Below are positions 1 to 34,824 of a stretch of 35,278 nt of DNA, piece after piece. Positions within the stretch are counted from its first letter, which is position 1. The number at the start of each line of letters is the position of its first letter. Made by a program: the position numbers and the translations under genes. The stretch is from Betaproteobacteria bacterium (GTDB taxonomy: Bacteria; Pseudomonadota; Gammaproteobacteria; Burkholderiales; SG8-41): positions 1 through 35,278 of the forward strand of contig JACQOJ010000076.1 of assembly GCA_016202605.1 (NCBI GenBank), written 5' to 3'. The notes beneath the pieces are model-generated. The model saw only the letters and a program-made list of their open reading frames with translations, was not told the DNA's origin and made no database searches.

Positions 1-121
1 CCTCACGGACAACTGTGTGGCACTACGTGCTCCAGCACGCAACCCACGTTATCACGGAGGCAGGCCGCCTCACACCAACAAGAAGCCATTCTGTCTAGGT
101 CGCCTGGCTCGAGGAACGAAC

Positions 122-727
122 ATGGCAGCGCAAATCAGATTGGCGCAAGGTCATGATGCCGAATCCATTGCTGCCATCTATCGACCGTTCGTCGAGACGA
201 CAGCGATTTCATTTGAAACCGAGGCTCCCGATCGGGAGGAAATGGTGCGCCGAATCACGGAGACGATGGCGTCATATCCGTGGCTGGTTTGCGAAATCGG
301 CGGTCAGGTCGCGGGCTACGCATACGCGACACGGCACCGAGTACGAGCGGCGTATCGCTGGTCGGTGGATACCTCGGTCTACGTAGGCCAGAAGTACTGG
401 CGGGGTGGTGTCGGTCGAGGACTATACGCCTCGCTGTTCGGCATCTTGGCGGCTCAAGGATTCTTCAACGCCTATGCTGGCATTACGCTCCCCAATCCCG
501 CCAGCGTGGCCCTCCATCAGTCAGTCGGGTTCAAGGGGATCGGGGTCCACCAGCGCGTTGGGTACAAGCTTGGGGCGTGGCATGACGTCGGGTGGTGGCA
601 ACTGCGGTTGAAGGCCAGTGAATCATCGCCGAGGGAACCGCGTGACCTCGCGACGGTTAGAAGCGAACCCGGATGGGAATCGCTTGTAACGAGTGGGCAA
701 ACGTTCATACGAGCGAAGGCTGCTTAA
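122..727 (+). CDS. GNAT family N-acetyltransferase (phosphinothricin/methionine sulfoximine acetyltransferase-like)
   Basis: MAAQIRLAQGHDAESIAAIYRPFVETTAISFETEAPDREEM...GVGRGLYASLF...GF.NAYAGITLPNPASVALHQSVGFKGIGVHQRVGYKLGAWHDVGWWQ is the typical PAT/Bar-like GNAT pattern; ATG at 122 fits better than the ORF-track start at 17. Confidence 0.9.
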   Translation: MAAQIRLAQGHDAESIAAIYRPFVETTAISFETEAPDREEMVRRITETMASYPWLVCEIGGQVAGYAYATRHRVRAAYRWSVDTSVYVGQKYWRGGVGRGLYASLFGILAAQGFFNAYAGITLPNPASVALHQSVGFKGIGVHQRVGYKLGAWHDVGWWQLRLKASESSPREPRDLATVRSEPGWESLVTSGQTFIRAKAA

Positions 728-2987: not shown

Positions 2988-3197
2988 GCCATCCAGCCGC
3001 ATGATCCTCGATTCACAGTCATCCGCATCGTTTATCGACGGCTGCAAGAGGACTCTGCTCGAGATCTATCGCACAAAGGGAACGAATAACGAACGCGAAG
3101 TTTCGGCAATGCTGGCGGTAGCGCGCAAGCGCGCACCGCTGATTTCCGACGATAGGCCCTCGCGGTCACCTTTGTAACCCTTGTTCGGAGGCGCCCC

Positions 3198-5909
3198 ATG
3201 CCTGATGTAGCCGCGAAACCCGCTCTGGCCAGGACCGTGCTCCACGACTGGCATGCAAGCCACCAGGCCCGGATGGTCGGGTTCGGCGGTTGGGAGATGC
3301 CGGTCCAGTACGCGGACGGCATCATCCGCGAACACCTCGCCACGCGCCGCCACGCCGGCCTTTTCGACATTTCCCACATGGGGCGCTTTCGCGTGCGCGG
3401 TCCCGGCGCGGAGGAATTCCTGCTGCGCGTGCTGACCAACAACGCCCGGGCGCTGGAACCCGCCGAAGCGCACTATACGATCATCGCCAATGAAAACGGC
3501 GGCGCAGTCGATGACGCTTATCTCTACCGGCTGGCGCGCGAGGATTTCCTGCTGGTGGTGAATGCGGCGAACCGCGCCAGGGACTGGGAATGGATTCGCG
3601 GCTACCTGCCGCAGCAAGGCGTGAGCCTCGATGACGCGAGCGAGGAACTCGCGATGATATCGCTCCAGGGACCCCACGCGGAGGACATCCTCTCCGCGGT
3701 CGTGCCGCGAAACGAGCTTCCGGAGGCCAAGCGCAACCGGCTGAGCGTATCCCGCTTCGAATCCACCGAACTCATCGTGGCACGCACCGGATACACCGGC
3801 GAGAGCGTGTGCTTCGAGTTCTTCTGCGCGCGCGGCGCGGCTCCCGGCCTCTGGGAAAAGCTCGCAGGTCTCGGCGCAGTGCCCTGCGGTCTCGGCGCGC
3901 GGGATTCGCTGCGATTGGAAGCCGGGCTGCCGCTTTACGGCCACGAGTTCGGAATCGACCCCGAAGGCGCGGAGATTCCCGTTTTTGCGAACGATCTCGC
4001 GCGCTTCGCGGTTCGTCCTCCCGCGAGCGGAGATTACATCGGTCGCCCGGCGCTCGAAGCCCAGCGCGAGGAAGTTATCGAGATCCGCCGCGGCACGCTG
4101 AAGAAGCCCGTTGCGGAGCGGCTGCTCAAGCGCCTGGTCCTGCCCATCGCCGTGTTCGCCGGCCGCAAGCCGCTGCGCGCCGGCTACCGGCTTTTCCAGG
4201 GCGACCGGCAGGTCGGATACGTGACCTCCGGCACTTCGGTCCCCTACGCGAACTTCTATGGTGAAGGGCTCACCGCGGTTCCGGCCGCAGATCACGGCAT
4301 GCGGCCCATCGGTCTCGCGCTCATCGACTCCGGCATCCGTTTTCGCAACGACCGGCCGGTGACGCTCGAAGTCGATGACGGCAAAGGCGGACAGTTCACC
4401 GCCGAACTCGTCGAGCGCAACCTGTGGCCCGCCGCGCCCTACTCCCGTCCCGCCGGGAGCTTCACCCCGCCCCCACTACCCGCGCGCGTCGGGCTCGGCC
4501 GGCTCCACGAACACGCGGAAAAGCTTGCCGAGGCATCGCGCGCCAATACCGGCTGGCGCCGCGCCGAGTGCGTCAATCTCATTCCTTCCGAGCAGCCGAC
4601 CTCGGCGTTCGTCGATGCGCTGTGCACGGCCGACCCCGCCGGCCGCTACAACGAGCACAACCAGTTGAAGGCGCTCGGCCCGCACTCGCCCGAGGTGTGC
4701 TATTACAAAGGCACCGCCTTCATGATGGAGAAGGAGGAAGAACTGAAGGCCGCGCTGCGCACTTTTTTCAACTGCGCGCAGGTGGAACCGCGCGTGATCA
4801 GCGGCCAGATGGCGAACGACACCGTTTACGATGCGCTCAAGCAGTTCCGCAACCGGCATCGCAGCGGCGTCGAGCCGCGCCTGCTCGGTCCGGTGCTGGT
4901 GCACGATCTCAACAAGGGCGGGCACCTGAGCGCCCAGGTGCCGGGCGCGCTCAAGAACTATGTGCGGATCGATCCGCGGACCGGCCGGCCCGATATGCTG
5001 CACTTCCCTTTGTCCCGCGACAATCCCTATCTGATCGATGTCGAGGAGGCGAGGCGCATCATCGCCGAGCGGAAACCGGAGCTGCTCGTCTTCGGGCGCA
5101 GCGTCATCATTCAGCGTGAGCCCGTGCGCGAGATTGCCGCGTTCATCCATGCCGAGTTCGGCGCGGACAACCCGGAGCGGCCGGTGATCCTCTACGACGC
5201 CGCCCACGTGCTCGGACTGCTCGGGCCGCACTACCAGGATCCGCTTGCCGAAGGCGCCGATCTCGTGACGGGCTCGACGCACAAGACCTTCTTCGGGCCG
5301 CAGCGCGGCGTCATTCTGAGCAACATCGGTCCGGGTTCACCTTTCGTGGAGTTATGGCAGCATGTCGTAGCGCGCGCCTTCCCGGGGCACGTCAGCAACC
5401 ATCACCTGGGAACACTGCTGGGACTGCTCGGTGCGACCTATGAAATGCTTGCCTTCCGCGACGAATACCCGCGCCAGGTGATCGCCAATGCCAAAGCGTT
5501 CGCGCGCGCCCTGAGCGCGGGGGGACTCGCCTGCGAAGGCGATGCGCGCAACGATTACACGGAGACCCACCAGGTGCTGCTGAGAAGCGGGCGCGCCAAG
5601 GGGCAGTGGCTCGCGAAGCTGCTCGAAGCGAACAACATCATCACCAATCCGCAGGCCTTCTACGACGACCCGAGCTTCACCGCGGCGAGCGGCATCCGCA
5701 TGGGCGCGCAGGAAATGACGCGCTACGGCATGGAGGAGCGGGACTTCGCCGAACTGGCCACAGTGGTCGCGGAAATCGTCGGCGGAGGCGCCGGGCGTGC
5801 GGCGGGCCACTGGAAGTCGCGCGTCGTCGAATTCCGCAGCCGGTTCCGGGAAATGAGATATTGCTTCGGGCCTCAGGAGCAAGCCAGGGGCGTGACCGGT
5901 GACCAGTGA
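3198..5909 (+). CDS. Fusion protein: N-terminal GcvT aminomethyltransferase + C-terminal serine hydroxymethyltransferase-like domain
   Basis: N-term: VGFGGWEMPVQY, NENGGAVDDAYLYR, ARTGYTGE, GARDSLRLEAGLPLYGHE, QVGYVTSGTSVPY. C-term: ECVNLIPSEQPTS, GRYNEHN, SGQMAND, NKGGHLS, LYDAAHVLGLLG, TGSTHKTFFGPQRGVIL (PLP Lys), SGIRMGAQEMTRYG. One uninterrupted frame with a Pro-rich linker. Confidence 0.9.
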   Translation: MPDVAAKPALARTVLHDWHASHQARMVGFGGWEMPVQYADGIIREHLATRRHAGLFDISHMGRFRVRGPGAEEFLLRVLTNNARALEPAEAHYTIIANENGGAVDDAYLYRLAREDFLLVVNAANRARDWEWIRGYLPQQGVSLDDASEELAMISLQGPHAEDILSAVVPRNELPEAKRNRLSVSRFESTELIVARTGYTGESVCFEFFCARGAAPGLWEKLAGLGAVPCGLGARDSLRLEAGLPLYGHEFGIDPEGAEIPVFANDLARFAVRPPASGDYIGRPALEAQREEVIEIRRGTLKKPVAERLLKRLVLPIAVFAGRKPLRAGYRLFQGDRQVGYVTSGTSVPYANFYGEGLTAVPAADHGMRPIGLALIDSGIRFRNDRPVTLEVDDGKGGQFTAELVERNLWPAAPYSRPAGSFTPPPLPARVGLGRLHEHAEKLAEASRANTGWRRAECVNLIPSEQPTSAFVDALCTADPAGRYNEHNQLKALGPHSPEVCYYKGTAFMMEKEEELKAALRTFFNCAQVEPRVISGQMANDTVYDALKQFRNRHRSGVEPRLLGPVLVHDLNKGGHLSAQVPGALKNYVRIDPRTGRPDMLHFPLSRDNPYLIDVEEARRIIAERKPELLVFGRSVIIQREPVREIAAFIHAEFGADNPERPVILYDAAHVLGLLGPHYQDPLAEGADLVTGSTHKTFFGPQRGVILSNIGPGSPFVELWQHVVARAFPGHVSNHHLGTLLGLLGATYEMLAFRDEYPRQVIANAKAFARALSAGGLACEGDARNDYTETHQVLLRSGRAKGQWLAKLLEANNIITNPQAFYDDPSFTAASGIRMGAQEMTRYGMEERDFAELATVVAEIVGGGAGRAAGHWKSRVVEFRSRFREMRYCFGPQEQARGVTGDQ

Positions 5910-8132: not shown

Positions 8133-9473
8133 TCAGAGGAGCCCGCGGGCGAGTACGATGAGGATCAGCACCGGTACCACGTAGCGCAGTAGCAGCCGCC
8201 AGGCGTGCCACGCGGCGGGCGATCGCAGCCCGGAGGCGTTTCGCAACAGCGCGGGCGCAAGCGCCCAGCCGGCAAACAGCGCGATCAGCAGCCCGCTCAG
8301 CGGGAGCAGGAGATCGGAAGCGACGTGATCCGCTGCCTCGAGAATCCCGCTACCGAAGGGCCGGATCTCCGCCAGCAGGCCGAACCCGAGCGCGGAGGGA
8401 AGACCGAGGGTAAATGCGGCGAGGCCGACCGCCGCCGCCGCGGCCGGCCGCGTCCACCGCAGCCGGCGCACGAGAAAGGCCACGGGCACCTCGAGGAGCG
8501 ATACCGCGGAGGTAAGGGCGGCGGCCGAAAGCAGGAGGAAGAAAGCGAGCCCGACCACCCCGCCGCCGGGCAAAACGGCGAACACCTGCGGCAGGGTGAC
8601 GAACGCGAGCGGCGGGCCGTGCGCCGGATCGAGTCCGAACGCGAACACCGCGGGGAAGATCGCCACGCCGGCCACGAGAGAGAAAAGAGTGTCGCATGCA
8701 GCGACGGACAGCGCCGCGGGCGCGAGCCGCTGCGTTTGCGTCGTATAACTCGCGTAGGTGAGCAGTATGCCCATGCCGATGCCGAGCGAGAAAAACGCCT
8801 GGCCGAGCGCGGCGAGGTACACCTCCGGGCGCGCGAGCGCGGACCAGTCCGGCGCGAACAGGAAGACAAGGCCGCGGCGCGCGCCGTCGAGCGTCAGCGC
8901 ATAGGCCGCGAGCGCCACGACGATCGCGCCGAGCAGCGGCATGAGCACCTTGTTCGTCGCCTCGATCCCGCGCTCGATGCCCGCGGCCACCACGCCCACC
9001 GTGGTCGCGATCACGACGAACTGCCATAGCACCGGCTCGAGGGGATGCGTGATGAACGCCTCGAAATAGCCGCGTACTTCCTCCCGCGGCATGCCCCGGA
9101 ACGTGCCGCTCGCGTAGCCGGCCAGGTACCTGTAGGCCCAACCGGCGACCACCGCGTAGTAGGTGAGGATCAGGAATGCCGCCGCCATGCCGAGCCAGCC
9201 GGCGGCCCGCCAGGCCGGATGCGGCGCAAGCCGCTCGAAGGTCGCGATGGCGTCGGACCGGGCACCCTTGCCCAGCGCAAACTCGGCCAGCATCAACGGG
9301 ACGCCAAGGACCAGGACGCAAGCCACGTAGGCAAGCAGGAATGCCGCGCCGCCGTTCTCCCCGAGGACATAGGAGAACCGCCACATATTGCCCAGGCCGA
9401 CCGCGGCACCGACCGTCGCGAGGATGAATCCCGCTCGGGACCGCCACTGCTCGGCTTCTTTCGACTCGCGCAT
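8133..9473 (-). CDS. Sodium-dependent transporter, neurotransmitter:sodium symporter (SNF/NSS) family
   Basis: EQWRSRAGFILATVGAAVGLGNMWRFSYVLGENGGAAFLLAYVACVLVLGVPLMLAEFALG is the NSS N-terminal signature. Confidence 0.93.
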   Translation of the reverse strand: MRESKEAEQWRSRAGFILATVGAAVGLGNMWRFSYVLGENGGAAFLLAYVACVLVLGVPLMLAEFALGKGARSDAIATFERLAPHPAWRAAGWLGMAAAFLILTYYAVVAGWAYRYLAGYASGTFRGMPREEVRGYFEAFITHPLEPVLWQFVVIATTVGVVAAGIERGIEATNKVLMPLLGAIVVALAAYALTLDGARRGLVFLFAPDWSALARPEVYLAALGQAFFSLGIGMGILLTYASYTTQTQRLAPAALSVAACDTLFSLVAGVAIFPAVFAFGLDPAHGPPLAFVTLPQVFAVLPGGGVVGLAFFLLLSAAALTSAVSLLEVPVAFLVRRLRWTRPAAAAAVGLAAFTLGLPSALGFGLLAEIRPFGSGILEAADHVASDLLLPLSGLLIALFAGWALAPALLRNASGLRSPAAWHAWRLLLRYVVPVLILIVLARGLL

Positions 9474-9594: not shown

Positions 9595-11490
9595 TTACCG
9601 AAAGCCCAGCCGTATCCAGATCGGCAGGGCAAGCAAAGCCATGGCGAGATTCAGCCCTATCCACAAATCGCGGTCGGGAAGCCACGCCGGCGGTGTCGCA
9701 TCGACCATCCAGGTGCCGATGCCGACCAGCGCGCAGAAAACGGTAAGCGCCGCGAGCACGGTCGCAGCGAGACCGCGCACGAGGGAGGCGAGAGGCAGAC
9801 GCGCATCCTCTCCAGCCGCGCGCGCAACCGGCCCCCAGAAACCGGGCGGCCGGACCTTCTCATAGAACGCACGCAGCGACTCGGGCGTTACCGGATGAAT
9901 CCGGATGGAAGCGCCGATTCCCGCGGCAGTGGCCGCCGCCGCAACGATCAGTATGCGCAGCGGCGCGAGATCGTCCGGAACGAGCGCGAGCACCACGGGC
10001 ACGAGCAGCGCGGAAGCGATCAATGCGGCAAGCTCGCCCCAGGCCGTGATGCGCCACCACAACCACCTCAGCACGAGCATGACGCCGACGCCGGCGCCGA
10101 GCAGCAGGCTCGATTCCCAGGCTGTCTTCACCGAGTCGAGCCGGCTCATGATGAGGAGCGAAACGAGCAGGATCAGGATATTCGAAATGCGCGCCACCCA
10201 CACCAGCGAGCGCTCGCCGGGCGTCCTGCCGAGATAGCCGCAGACGAAGCGCCGGTAGATGTCGTTGGTCCAGTAGGAGGCGCCCCAGTTAAGATGCGTG
10301 TCGACGGTCGATGCCAGCGCCGCGATCATTCCGGTCAGCATCAGGCCTTTCAGTCCCGCCGGCAGGAATTCCGCGATGCCGAGCACGAAGGTTGCCTCCC
10401 GTTCGGCAACATATGAGGCGTGTCCGCGTGCCGGAGTGTCCGGAAACAGCAGCAGGAGCGCCAGCGCGATCGGCAGCCACACCAGGCTGCGCACGAGCAC
10501 CTGCGCGAACGTGAAGATCGTCGCCGCCCGCTTCGCTTCGTGATCGTCGCGGCACGCCATCGTGCGCTGCGCCAGGTAGCCGGTGCCGTCGGCGTTCACC
10601 TGGATCAGCCACTGGAGCAGAAACACGGCTAACAGCATCGCCGTGACATCGTGCGCAACGGACGGGGTGAACGCGAGGATTTCGGACGCACTGGGTCCGC
10701 TCTCCCGGCCTGATGCGTCGAACGCCGAGCGCAGCCCCGCCAGCATCGCGTCCATGCCCCCGGCTTCGCGAACCAGGAACGCGGCATAGGCGACGCTCGC
10801 GATCATCATGATGCCGAACTGCACCATGTCCGTCTTCACCACCGAGCGCAGCCCGCCCAGCGTGGAATAGAACAGCGTGATGAGCGTGATGAAGAGGAGT
10901 GACACGAAGTTGCTGGTCGCCCGCGTCCATCGCGCCGGATCGTCAGCCGGCGTTGCGGTGAGCGGCAGCTCCGCCCACTCGACAAAGCGGCGCAGCGCAT
11001 CGAACAGGCCTGCCGGCAGCCACTCGTTCCACGTGAGGAAAGGCTCGGCGATGCGCGTCGCGGCAAGGAGGACGATGGCGAGCGCAAAGCAGTTGAACAC
11101 GGTGCCGAAATAGAGCGCTTTAACCAGACGCAATGGCGCCGCGCCCCGCCCGGCATAACGCAATTCCGCCAGCTCCGCGTCGGTCAGCACGCCCGCCCGG
11201 CGCCAGCAGGCGGCGAGCACGAACGCCAGCAGGAGAAAAGAAATGGCGTAGATCCACAGCCGCCACAGCGCGAAGATGCCGCCGACCGCGACCAGCCCGG
11301 TCACGAGCAGCGGGGTGTCCGCGGCGAACTGCGTCGCCGCCATGCTGATGCCGGCGTGCCATCCGCTCAGGCTGCGTCCGGCGAGGAAATACTGTTCGGG
11401 GCTGACGGCGGCGAGGCGGCGGTCGCGCACTCCGACAACGACGACATAAGCCAGGAAGGCGGCGACGATCGCCAGGTCGAATAGCGTCAC
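9595..11490 (-). CDS. Sodium:solute symporter (SSS) family protein
   Basis: VVVGVRDRRLAAVSPEQYFLAGRSLSGWHAGISMAATQFAADTPLLVTGLVAVGGI...TMACRDDHEAKRAATIF...LMLTGMIAALASTVDTHLNWGASYWTNDIYRRF. Confidence 0.93.
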   Translation of the reverse strand: MTLFDLAIVAAFLAYVVVVGVRDRRLAAVSPEQYFLAGRSLSGWHAGISMAATQFAADTPLLVTGLVAVGGIFALWRLWIYAISFLLLAFVLAACWRRAGVLTDAELAELRYAGRGAAPLRLVKALYFGTVFNCFALAIVLLAATRIAEPFLTWNEWLPAGLFDALRRFVEWAELPLTATPADDPARWTRATSNFVSLLFITLITLFYSTLGGLRSVVKTDMVQFGIMMIASVAYAAFLVREAGGMDAMLAGLRSAFDASGRESGPSASEILAFTPSVAHDVTAMLLAVFLLQWLIQVNADGTGYLAQRTMACRDDHEAKRAATIFTFAQVLVRSLVWLPIALALLLLFPDTPARGHASYVAEREATFVLGIAEFLPAGLKGLMLTGMIAALASTVDTHLNWGASYWTNDIYRRFVCGYLGRTPGERSLVWVARISNILILLVSLLIMSRLDSVKTAWESSLLLGAGVGVMLVLRWLWWRITAWGELAALIASALLVPVVLALVPDDLAPLRILIVAAAATAAGIGASIRIHPVTPESLRAFYEKVRPPGFWGPVARAAGEDARLPLASLVRGLAATVLAALTVFCALVGIGTWMVDATPPAWLPDRDLWIGLNLAMALLALPIWIRLGFR

Positions 11491-31207: not shown

Positions 31208-32470
31208 GTGGCCCAGCGCAATGCTCTTTACGCACAATCCGGCGGTGTCACCGCGGTGATCAACGCCACCGCTTGCGGCGTTATCGAGACCGCGCGCAGG
31301 CACCGGGCAAGGATTCGCAAGGTCTACGCCGGGCGCGATGGCATCATCGGCGTGCTTACGGAACACCTGATCGACACCTCCAGGGAAACACCCGCTGCCA
31401 TCCGGGCGCTGCGCTACACACCCGCCGGCGCGTTCGGCTCGTGCCGCTACAAGCTCAAGGGACTGGAAGAAAGTCGCGCGCAATACGAACGATTGATCGC
31501 CGTGTTCCGGGCCCATGACATCGGTTACTTCTTCTACAACGGGGGCAACGATTCCGCCGACACCGCATGGAAGGTCTCGCAACTGGCGGGCAGGCTCGGC
31601 TATCCGCTCGTTTGCATCGGGATTCCCAAGACGGTCGATAACGACCTTGTCGGCACGGACAATTGCCCGGGTTTCGGATCGGTCGCCAAGTACGTCGCGA
31701 CCAGCATGCGCGAGGCGGGATACGACGTCGCCTCGATGGCGCGCACGTCAACCAAGGTTTTCGTGCTCGAAGTCATGGGACGGCATGCCGGGTGGATCAC
31801 GGCGGCATGCGGCCTGGCTGCCGAGAAGGCGGGCGACGCCCCGCACATCCTGCTGTTTCCGGAAGTTGCATTCGAGCCGGAGCCTTTTCTCGCGCGCGTC
31901 GAGGCGACAGTGAAGAAGCACGGCTTCTGCGCCATCGCGGTCTCGGAGGGACTCCGCTACCCGGACGGCAAGTTTCTTTCCGAGTCCGGCGTGCGCGATG
32001 CCTTCGGGCACGCGCAGCTGGGCGGCGCCGCCCCACGCATCGCAAGCCTGGTCAGGAACCGTTTCGATTACCGCTGCCATTGGGCCGTGGCCGACTATCT
32101 CCAGCGCGCGGCCCGCCACCTCGCCTCCAGGGTCGATGTCGAGCAGGCCTATGCCGTGGGCAAGGCGGCGGTGGAACTCGCCGTCACGGGCCGCAACGCG
32201 GTGATGCCCGTCATCGTGCGCAAGTCAAATCGTCCCTACCGCTGGACGATAGGTGTCGCCGAACTCGAGGACATCGCAAACCGGGAAAAAAAGGTACCGC
32301 GCGATTTCATCACGCGCGACGGCTTCCGGATCACCGCGAAATGCCGCGAATATCTGGCGCCGCTCATCCAGGGCGAGGATCCGCCGCCGTTCCGGAACGG
32401 GCTCCCCGTTTACGCGAAGCTCAGGAACGTCACCGCGCCCAGGAAACTGGCCGGTGAGTTCAAGATCTAG
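31208..32470 (+). CDS. pfp: 6-phosphofructokinase, pyrophosphate-dependent type
   Basis: RNALYAQSGGVTAVINATACGVI...YFFYNGGNDSADTAWKVSQL...CIGIPKTVDNDLVGTDNCPGFGSVAKYVATS...EVMGRHAGWITAACGLA; Lys in PKTVDND and Asp in GGND are PPi-PFK features. Confidence 0.93.
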   Translation: MAQRNALYAQSGGVTAVINATACGVIETARRHRARIRKVYAGRDGIIGVLTEHLIDTSRETPAAIRALRYTPAGAFGSCRYKLKGLEESRAQYERLIAVFRAHDIGYFFYNGGNDSADTAWKVSQLAGRLGYPLVCIGIPKTVDNDLVGTDNCPGFGSVAKYVATSMREAGYDVASMARTSTKVFVLEVMGRHAGWITAACGLAAEKAGDAPHILLFPEVAFEPEPFLARVEATVKKHGFCAIAVSEGLRYPDGKFLSESGVRDAFGHAQLGGAAPRIASLVRNRFDYRCHWAVADYLQRAARHLASRVDVEQAYAVGKAAVELAVTGRNAVMPVIVRKSNRPYRWTIGVAELEDIANREKKVPRDFITRDGFRITAKCREYLAPLIQGEDPPPFRNGLPVYAKLRNVTAPRKLAGEFKI

Positions 32471-32775: not shown

Positions 32776-34824
32776 ATGTCGTATGGTCTGTCATTCGCGC
32801 TACTCTGCGCCATCGCCGGCATTGGATACGGCTTTTATTCGATCAAATGGATCCTGGCCCAGCCGAGCGGCAACGATCGCATGCGCGAAATCGCCGCGGC
32901 GGTCCAGCAGGGCGCCGCGGCCTACCTGGGACGCCAGTACAAGACCATCGCCATGGTCGGCGTCGTCCTTTTCCTGGTGATCGGTTTCGGTCTGAAATCG
33001 TGGCCGACCGCGGTCGGTTTCGTCATCGGCGCCCTGCTCTCGGCCGCGGCGGGCGTGATCGGCATGAATGTATCGGTCCGGTCGAACGTGCGCACCGCGG
33101 AGGCCGCGCGCAAGGGACTCAACGAGGCGCTGGCCATTGCGTTTCGCGGCGGCGCCATCACCGGGATGCTGGTGGTGGGACTGGGACTCCTGGGGGTCAC
33201 TGCGTTTTTCTGGGTGCTGCTCGGAAGCGCGATGCATGGCGCCTCGATGAAGGAGATCCTGCATCCGCTGGTCGGTCTCGCCTTCGGCGGGTCGCTCATT
33301 TCCATTTTCGCCCGTCTGGGCGGCGGCATTTTCACCAAGGGAGCCGATGTCGGCGCGGACCTTGTGGGCAAGGTGGAAGCCGGCATTCCGGAGGACGATC
33401 CGAGGAATCCGGCGGTCATCGCCGACAACGTGGGCGACAACGTCGGGGATTGCGCGGGCATGGCGGCTGACCTGTTCGAAACCTATGCCGTCACGATCAT
33501 CGCCACCATGCTGCTGGGCGCGCTGCTGTTGTCGAAACCCGAGGTCGCGCCGCTCGCGGTCGTCTACCCGCTGGTGCTGGGGGGGGTTTCCATCATCGCC
33601 TCGATCATCGGGTGTTATTTCGTAAAGGCGCAACCCGGCAGGAAAATCATGAGCGCGCTTTACAAAGGCGTGGTCGTCTCGGGCCTGCTCGCCACCGTCG
33701 CTTTCTATCCCGTCACCGTCTGGCTGATGGGCGACATCGGCACGCAATATCCGGAGCTCTCGGTAATGAAGCTCTTCGGCGCCGCGGTAGTGGGACTCGT
33801 GCTGACCGCCCTGATGGTGGTGATCACCGAATACTATACGGCCACGGAGTTCTCACCCGTGCGCCATGTCGCCGCGGCGTCCACGACCGGACACGCGACC
33901 AACATCATCGCCGGTCTCGGCGTATCGATGAAAGCGACGACCTGGCCGGTGATCGCCGTGTGCGCGAGCATCTGGGCGGCCTACGCGATGGCCGGGCTCT
34001 ACGGCATCGCGATCGCCGCGACCTCGATGCTCTCGATGACGGGCATCATCGTCGCGCTCGACGCCTACGGGCCGATCACCGACAACGCCGGCGGCATTGC
34101 CGAGATGGCGGATATGCCCAAGGAGGTGCGCGCCATCACCGACCCGCTCGACGCGGTCGGCAACACCACCAAGGCGGTCACCAAGGGCTATGCGATCGGA
34201 TCGGCGGGTCTCGCGGCGCTGGTGCTCTTCGCGGATTACACGCATGCGCTGGAGGCGGCCGGGAAAACGATCACGTTCGACCTGTCCAATCACATGGTGA
34301 TCATCGGCTTGTTCATCGGCGGACTGGTGCCTTATCTCTTCGGCGCGATGGCGATGGAGGCGGTCGGCCGCGCGGCGGGTTCCGTCGTCGTGGAAGTGCG
34401 CCGCCAGTTCAAGGAAATCGCGGGCATCATGGAAGGCAAGGCCAAGCCCGACTATTCGCGCGCGGTGGACATGCTTACGCGCGCGGCGATCAAGGAAATG
34501 ATCGTGCCATCGCTGCTGCCGGTCCTGATTCCGGTCGTCGTCGGCATCACGCTCGGCCCGCAGGCTCTGGGCGGCGTGCTGATGGGTTCGATCGTAACGG
34601 GGCTGTTCGTCGCGATCTCCATGACCACCGGCGGCGGCGCCTGGGACAACGCCAAGAAATACATCGAGGACGGCAATTACGGCGGCAAGGGCAGCGATGC
34701 CCACAAGGCCGCGGTGACGGGCGACACCGTGGGCGATCCCTACAAGGACACCGCCGGCCCGGCCGTGAACCCGCTGATCAAGATCATCAACATCGTGGCG
34801 CTGTTGATCGTGCCCCTGTTGTAA
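32776..34824 (+). CDS. hppA: Membrane-bound H+-translocating pyrophosphatase, K+-independent type by motif
   Basis: [56 protein letters not shown]...[10 protein letters not shown]...[24 protein letters not shown]...[33 protein letters not shown]. Confidence 0.97.

Follow-up and report, generated by a model that had tools for sequence, protein, structure and literature searches.

The locus described here raises the question of whether one betaproteobacterial reading frame encodes two enzymes of glycine metabolism, aminomethyltransferase (GcvT, the T protein) and serine hydroxymethyltransferase (SHMT), as a single chain and, if so, what such a chain does. The initial annotation of the window (the whole 35,278-nucleotide stretch of DNA analysed) had made this reading from the letters alone, and proposed that the fusion could couple production of 5,10-methylene-tetrahydrofolate (methylene-THF) to serine synthesis.

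Domain architecture and active-site residues

The frame spans positions 3198 to 5909 of the forward strand, stop codon included. It begins with ATG, has no internal stops and comprises 903 codons, hence a 903-residue protein. Direct reading places a Shine-Dalgarno sequence (GGAGG, 3187-3191, +) 6 nt upstream of the ATG. The protein consists of a complete GcvT, a Pro-rich linker (RPAGSFTPPPLPARVG, residues 417-432; 4446-4493, +) and a complete SHMT. All of the motifs quoted in the initial annotation are found in it and, as also stated there, the window contains neither gcvH nor gcvP. The linker varies in both length and sequence among relatives.

The GcvT folate-binding domain covers residues 15-252 (3240-3953, +; Pfam PF01571, GCV_T, E 1.3e-76), and the protein passes the TIGR00528 gcvT equivalog cut-off (252.2 bits for a cut-off of 235.85). 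The C-terminal barrel region (4158-4409, +) is divergent: PF08669 (GCV_T_C) scores 19.6 bits at residues 321-347, under its cut-off, and the strands of the region are seen in the structural model. Alignment to 1woo identifies Asp106 (3513-3515, +) as the catalytic aspartate, equivalent to Asp96 of Thermotoga maritima and Asp97 of Escherichia coli. This residue is invariant in 19 of 19 fusions and in all 55 rows of ordinary GcvT; the set D106, N122, Y199, E202, R235 and R239 is likewise unchanged in the 19 fusions. An Arg after SHMG and an insertion after RTGYTGE are signatures of the clade in this half.

The SHMT domain occupies residues 454-856 (4557-5765, +; Pfam PF00464, E 1.2e-25, 90.4 bits against a cut-off of 27). 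Lys696 in STHKT (5283-5285, +), the PLP Schiff-base lysine, is invariant across all SHMT rows, and Arg834 is the carboxylate-binding arginine. Together with S464, Y484, E486, Y503, S535, H576, D667 and H670, these two residues are unchanged in 19 of 19 fusions. The divergence noted in the initial annotation was borne out: this half is about 27% identical to the GlyA of its own genome and scores 205 bits with NCBIfam PRK00011, whose cut-off is 335, indicating that it is not an ordinary GlyA. A Gln is found in all fusions at the position of E. coli SHMT Asn347, which we take to be a folate contact, and constitutes a signature of the clade; the position of Lys346 is occupied by Tyr, Pro or Ser. 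These changes suggest that the folate contacts differ.

Divergence of this order had led to the suggestion that the C-terminal half might be a PLP-dependent aldolase or transaldolase, joining glycine to another aldehyde rather than acting as an SHMT. The low identity to GlyA and the Gln at the folate-contact position would agree with such an activity, and among PDB structures L-threonine transaldolase (7k34) ranks next after the best match; however, that best match, in both sequence and fold, is the SHMT of Methanocaldococcus jannaschii (4bhd/4uqv), which scores 152 bits as opposed to 81 for 7k34. In addition, Glu486 and Tyr503, which correspond to Glu57 and Tyr65 of E. coli, are invariant, and the subfamily supplies the only SHMT of several genomes (see below). 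An aldolase or transaldolase therefore appears unlikely. Identity with fluorothreonine transaldolase is likewise disfavoured by the score with TIGR04506 (116.7 bits for a cut-off of 650).

An AlphaFold2 monomer model was obtained from a 30-row alignment, one row from a plasmid collection having been excluded. The model (pLDDT 88.9, pTM 0.80) aligns with whole GcvT structures (1yx2, 1woo) at TMt 0.86-0.89 and with whole M. jannaschii SHMT structures (4bhd, 4uqv) at TMt 0.87-0.89, each half thus matching a complete enzyme. Confidence is low at residues 484-492, a stretch that takes in the RYNEH loop; in known SHMTs the corresponding loop packs at the subunit interface, a feature that a monomer model cannot display. 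The 903 open codons, the two Pfam domains, the TIGR00528 score and the match to both folds all argue that the fusion frame is real.

Distribution and phylogeny of the fusion

A scan of GTDB species genomes, combined with whole-genome searches, identified the same co-linear architecture in at least 22 other assemblies from Pseudomonadota, Desulfobacteraceae, Myxococcota, Actinomycetota and Clostridia, the finer affiliations including alphaproteobacteria, Acidimicrobiia, Thermoleophilia, Lachnospiraceae and Oscillospiraceae. The proteins are 44-68% identical and collinear end to end. Alignment over the full length of 18 further fused proteins revealed no stop or frameshift at the linker, and two clostridial examples lie on single contigs of 4.04 Mb (G781) and 3.39 Mb (G875). 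An artefact of assembly or gene calling, or a decayed gene, might be suspected because the window belongs to a fragmented metagenome-assembled genome (MAG) and one member of its genus has only a 292-residue fragment at a contig edge. That fragment, nonetheless, is an open frame 87% identical to the fusion (its downstream neighbours differ), and the recurrence of this domain order in many assemblies made independently, including the two single-contig genomes, indicates that the fusion is not an artefact, an explanation that can be practically dismissed.

The fusion was not found in three other members of the window's genus. It, or its T half, occurs in 2 other genomes of a 291-genome draw from the window's class; a draw of 399 genomes from the phylum yielded it in none except the window's own genome, and a draw of 294 from the class around G299 yielded it in 5, G299 included. 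Such rare and patchy occurrence suggests spread by horizontal transfer.

In phylogenetic trees, the SHMT halves group with their stand-alone relatives in a single clade (support 100/100), located beside, not inside, the sampled archaeal-type groups and far from ordinary GlyA. The T halves and a few lone T proteins also form one clade (97/92). The two trees agree in dividing into two main branches, one proteobacterial/Acidimicrobiia, with the window inside it, the other comprising Desulfobacteraceae, Myxococcota, Thermoleophilia and Clostridia. Two lone T proteins are nested in the fused branches: one (L030) stands alone inside the same type of operon as the fusions; the other (L005) is found in a related genome (G031), where no SHMT half follows in the approximately 300 nt to the contig end. 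Their position suggests that they may have lost the SHMT half secondarily. A third T protein (L024) is merely cut by a contig end. Stand-alone forms of the SHMT half are found in other phyla. From these sequences, a single early fusion event would be the simplest reading.

Two side observations concern SHMT genes elsewhere. In a WOR-3 locus (L022:7980-12283), a stand-alone SHMT of the subfamily is followed by genes that, by eye, resemble those for a glycerate 2-kinase and, before it, a GntP-type permease, a hint of a route between serine and glycerate. An archaeal-type SHMT of Aenigmarchaeota (L064:7998-9224) is split into two frames of 225 and 178 amino acids, possibly by a frameshift or a sequencing error.

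Genomic context and the link to glycine cleavage

In distant bacteria the fusion is often the first or second gene of a glycine-cleavage operon. The order in Vescimonas fastidiosa (NZ_AP023416.1) is a tandem glycine riboswitch, the fusion, gcvH, gcvPA, gcvPB, lpdA and the gene for 5-formyl-THF cyclo-ligase. The fusion gene, encoding 881 residues, is annotated publicly as GcvT only. 5-Formyl-THF is a known side product of SHMT, and the cyclo-ligase thus fits the presence of an SHMT in the operon. The arrangement fusion-gcvH-gcvPA-gcvPB(-lpd) recurs in other Clostridia and in one deltaproteobacterium (L012), and the two single-contig genomes have riboswitch, gcvH, fusion, gcvPA, gcvPB. A glycine riboswitch precedes the operon in 11 clostridial loci (L014, L015, L016, L017, L018, L021, L028, L031, L087, L159, L160). 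The replicon that carries the whole V. fastidiosa operon (L087) is 861 kb long and is listed as a plasmid.

The proteobacterial loci examined have the fusion outside gcv operons and have no riboswitch; none was found near the window gene, and conserved neighbours were not found in this branch, the flanks differing even in the genus mate. Two adjacent genes for sodium-coupled transporters of the SNF and SSF families (8133-9473 and 9595-11490, both -) lie near the fusion in the window, and a sodium-dependent transporter gene is also found upstream of the V. fastidiosa operon (L087:4019-5347), perhaps by chance.

Gene content was used to ask how far each half is the only enzyme of its kind in a genome. 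GcvP is present in every one of the 18 genomes checked that carry the fusion or one of its halves. No GcvT other than the fusion passes the cut-off in G291, G295, G299, G300, G781, G846, G875, G890 and G984-G988; among these, G291, a Rhodospirillaceae MAG from the window's branch, has gcvH, gcvPA and gcvPB together without gcvT. The fusion also provides the sole SHMT above cut-off in G058, G298, G299, G984, G985, G986 and G988. The first of these belongs to the window's class and is 93% complete; a second, ordinary gcvT adjoins its gcvP. In G301-G304 and G306, which span CSSED10-310, WOR-3 and Acidobacteriota, the one SHMT above cut-off is a stand-alone relative of the SHMT half; G306 corresponds to a chromosome-level record (CP070686.1). 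Finally, G031, a 93%-complete genome with GcvP, has no GcvT other than its lone T protein. Since most of these genomes are drafts, single absences are weak evidence and it is the overall pattern that counts. Combined with the presence of GcvP, this pattern argues that each half of the fusion does its ordinary job.

The window's own genome gives a mixed picture. It is a 2.8-Mb MAG of 156 contigs, 73.66% complete. Of the canonical second copies that the initial annotation had in mind, an ordinary glyA, adjoining nrdR and rib genes, is present. A GcvT domain also occurs in an open frame of 1029 residues; beyond this frame and the fusion, no further GcvT was found in this 73.66% of the genome. GcvP was not found in the same sequence; the missing quarter is the simplest reason. 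Two matches to the GcvH family were rejected as glycine-cleavage partners because they cluster with heterodisulfide-reductase-like and lipoate-assembly genes. They look like LbpA proteins of what we take to be the sHdr sulfur-oxidation pathway. By eye, the cluster (L090:242-13564, contig C140) contains heterodisulfide-reductase-like genes with two LbpA-like, two radical-SAM-like and two lipoate-ligase-like genes, which suggests that the organism oxidises sulfur. Elsewhere in the window, genes for a pyrophosphate-dependent phosphofructokinase (31208-32470, +) and a membrane pyrophosphatase (32776-34824, +) adjoin, a pairing of pyrophosphate-based glycolysis, and positions 17-727 (+) encode an arsinothricin N-acetyltransferase of the ArsN1 family B, above the NCBIfam cut-off.

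The LbpA-like proteins, the GcvP not found beside them, the position of proteobacterial fusions outside gcv operons and the ordinary gcvT next to gcvP in G058 would all be accommodated if the proteobacterial T half served another C1 donor, either of the methylamine type or a sulfur-oxidation protein that binds lipoate, instead of glycine cleavage. This is rendered very unlikely by the presence of GcvP in G058 and in all five of the other full-fusion genomes of the branch that were checked (G291-G295). Of these five, G291 and G295 lack any further GcvT above cut-off. The lone T protein of G031, a relative, and the quarter of the sequence missing from the window's own genome also speak against it. 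The methylamine-type donor entertained in the initial annotation gained no support.

Proposed function and relation to known systems

The above data lead us to propose, with a probability of roughly 0.77, that the fusion is a bifunctional T-protein/SHMT of the glycine cleavage system, both activities being predicted. According to this proposal, GcvP would load the aminomethyl group of glycine onto lipoyl-GcvH; the T half would take it from there, freeing ammonia and transferring the carbon to THF as 5,10-methylene-THF; and the divergent, archaeal-related, PLP-dependent SHMT half would use the methylene group to turn a second glycine into serine, releasing THF, upon which the cycle could repeat. 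The net reaction would convert two glycines and NAD+ to serine, CO2, NH3 and NADH, or the reverse. For local delivery of methylene-THF, the direction of flux and the presence of GcvP and GcvH in the window's organism, we infer rather than observe. Coupling of methylene-THF production to serine synthesis, as advanced in the initial annotation, is strengthened by the operon, riboswitch and sole-copy evidence; that annotation as a whole is partly supported. Counting against a bifunctional enzyme are the GcvP not found in the window's own genome, its ordinary glyA, the location of proteobacterial fusions outside gcv operons, the changes at Asn347 and Lys346, and the score of the SHMT half under the NCBIfam SHMT cut-off.

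Two sites on one chain would keep production and use of methylene-THF together, so that less of it may build up and less formaldehyde be lost. In published in vitro work on the E. coli glycine cleavage system, the release of formaldehyde from methylene-THF fell almost to zero once SHMT was added (PMC7227101), a result that gives such coupling a plausible benefit. True channelling, in which methylene-THF would pass from the T site to an SHMT site within one chain or oligomer and never leave the protein, is a tentative possibility; it would make the interconversion of glycine and serine a direct one, carried out by a distinct module that is under riboswitch control in Clostridia. In a variant of the bifunctional explanation, whose likelihood overlaps with that of the whole and for which we consider the chances about even, both halves are active and tethering serves only fixed stoichiometry and co-expression, methylene-THF exchanging freely with the cell pool. 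The variable linker agrees with simple tethering, and the existence of T halves alone (L030 in its operon, and L005) and of SHMT halves alone in other phyla implies that strict dependence on the fusion is not needed; on the other side, the halves, once fused, have remained so in lineages belonging to several phyla, and the main branches of the two trees agree.

Glycine cleavage and SHMT together convert two glycines to one serine in photorespiration and glycine fermentation, and they run in reverse in the reductive glycine pathway of C1 fixation. It has long been asked whether methylene-THF moves between the two by way of the bulk pool or locally; a natural single-chain version found in several phyla makes this testable, its lone-half relatives serving as controls. 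The fusion is also a ready-made part for synthetic C1 pathways, and its recognition corrects the public annotation of the V. fastidiosa protein. No description of a GcvT-SHMT fusion, as a glycine cleavage variant or otherwise, was found in the open-licence literature, older or closed papers being a possible exception; this new arrangement of two well-known enzymes, its spread and its operon thus appear undescribed in the literature searched.

With GcvT (TIGR00528; 1yx2 of Bacillus subtilis, 1woo of T. maritima, 3a8i/3a8k of E. coli), the fusion shares the fold, the catalytic Asp and the folate-pocket residues, as well as the gcvH/gcvP operon in relatives and the clostridial glycine riboswitch. 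Unlike GcvT, it has a C-terminal SHMT domain, an Arg in place of the usual Glu after SHMG, a one-residue insertion after RTGYTGE and a longer C-terminal barrel region. The alpha subunit of sarcosine oxidase, proteins of the dimethylglycine-dehydrogenase type and TMAO demethylase likewise join a GcvT-fold domain to an adjacent C1 step; in these the partner makes the C1 unit, whereas in the GcvT-SHMT fusion it consumes it. Only the GcvT domain of the fusion matches them, and identity with TMAO demethylase (142.7 bits against 1100) or sarcosine oxidase alpha (115.2 against 1164) was rejected. Plasmid genes for sarcosine oxidase alpha often adjoin glyA.

The active-site residues of the SHMT half (PLP lysine, Ser, Tyr, Glu, His, Asp and Arg) are also those of ordinary bacterial GlyA. 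An SHMT-like fold and some of the motifs of the archaeal-type group recur in L-threonine transaldolase (7k34) and fluorothreonine transaldolase. Closest is the archaeal-type SHMT of M. jannaschii, which shares GPQ replacing GPR after the PLP lysine and the SNHH motif. That enzyme probably uses a methanopterin carrier, whereas the partners of GcvT use THF. The SHMT half differs from it in forming a separate, well-supported clade on a long branch, in the Asn347 to Gln change, in an insert upstream of the GGHLSAQ motif and in being joined to GcvT.
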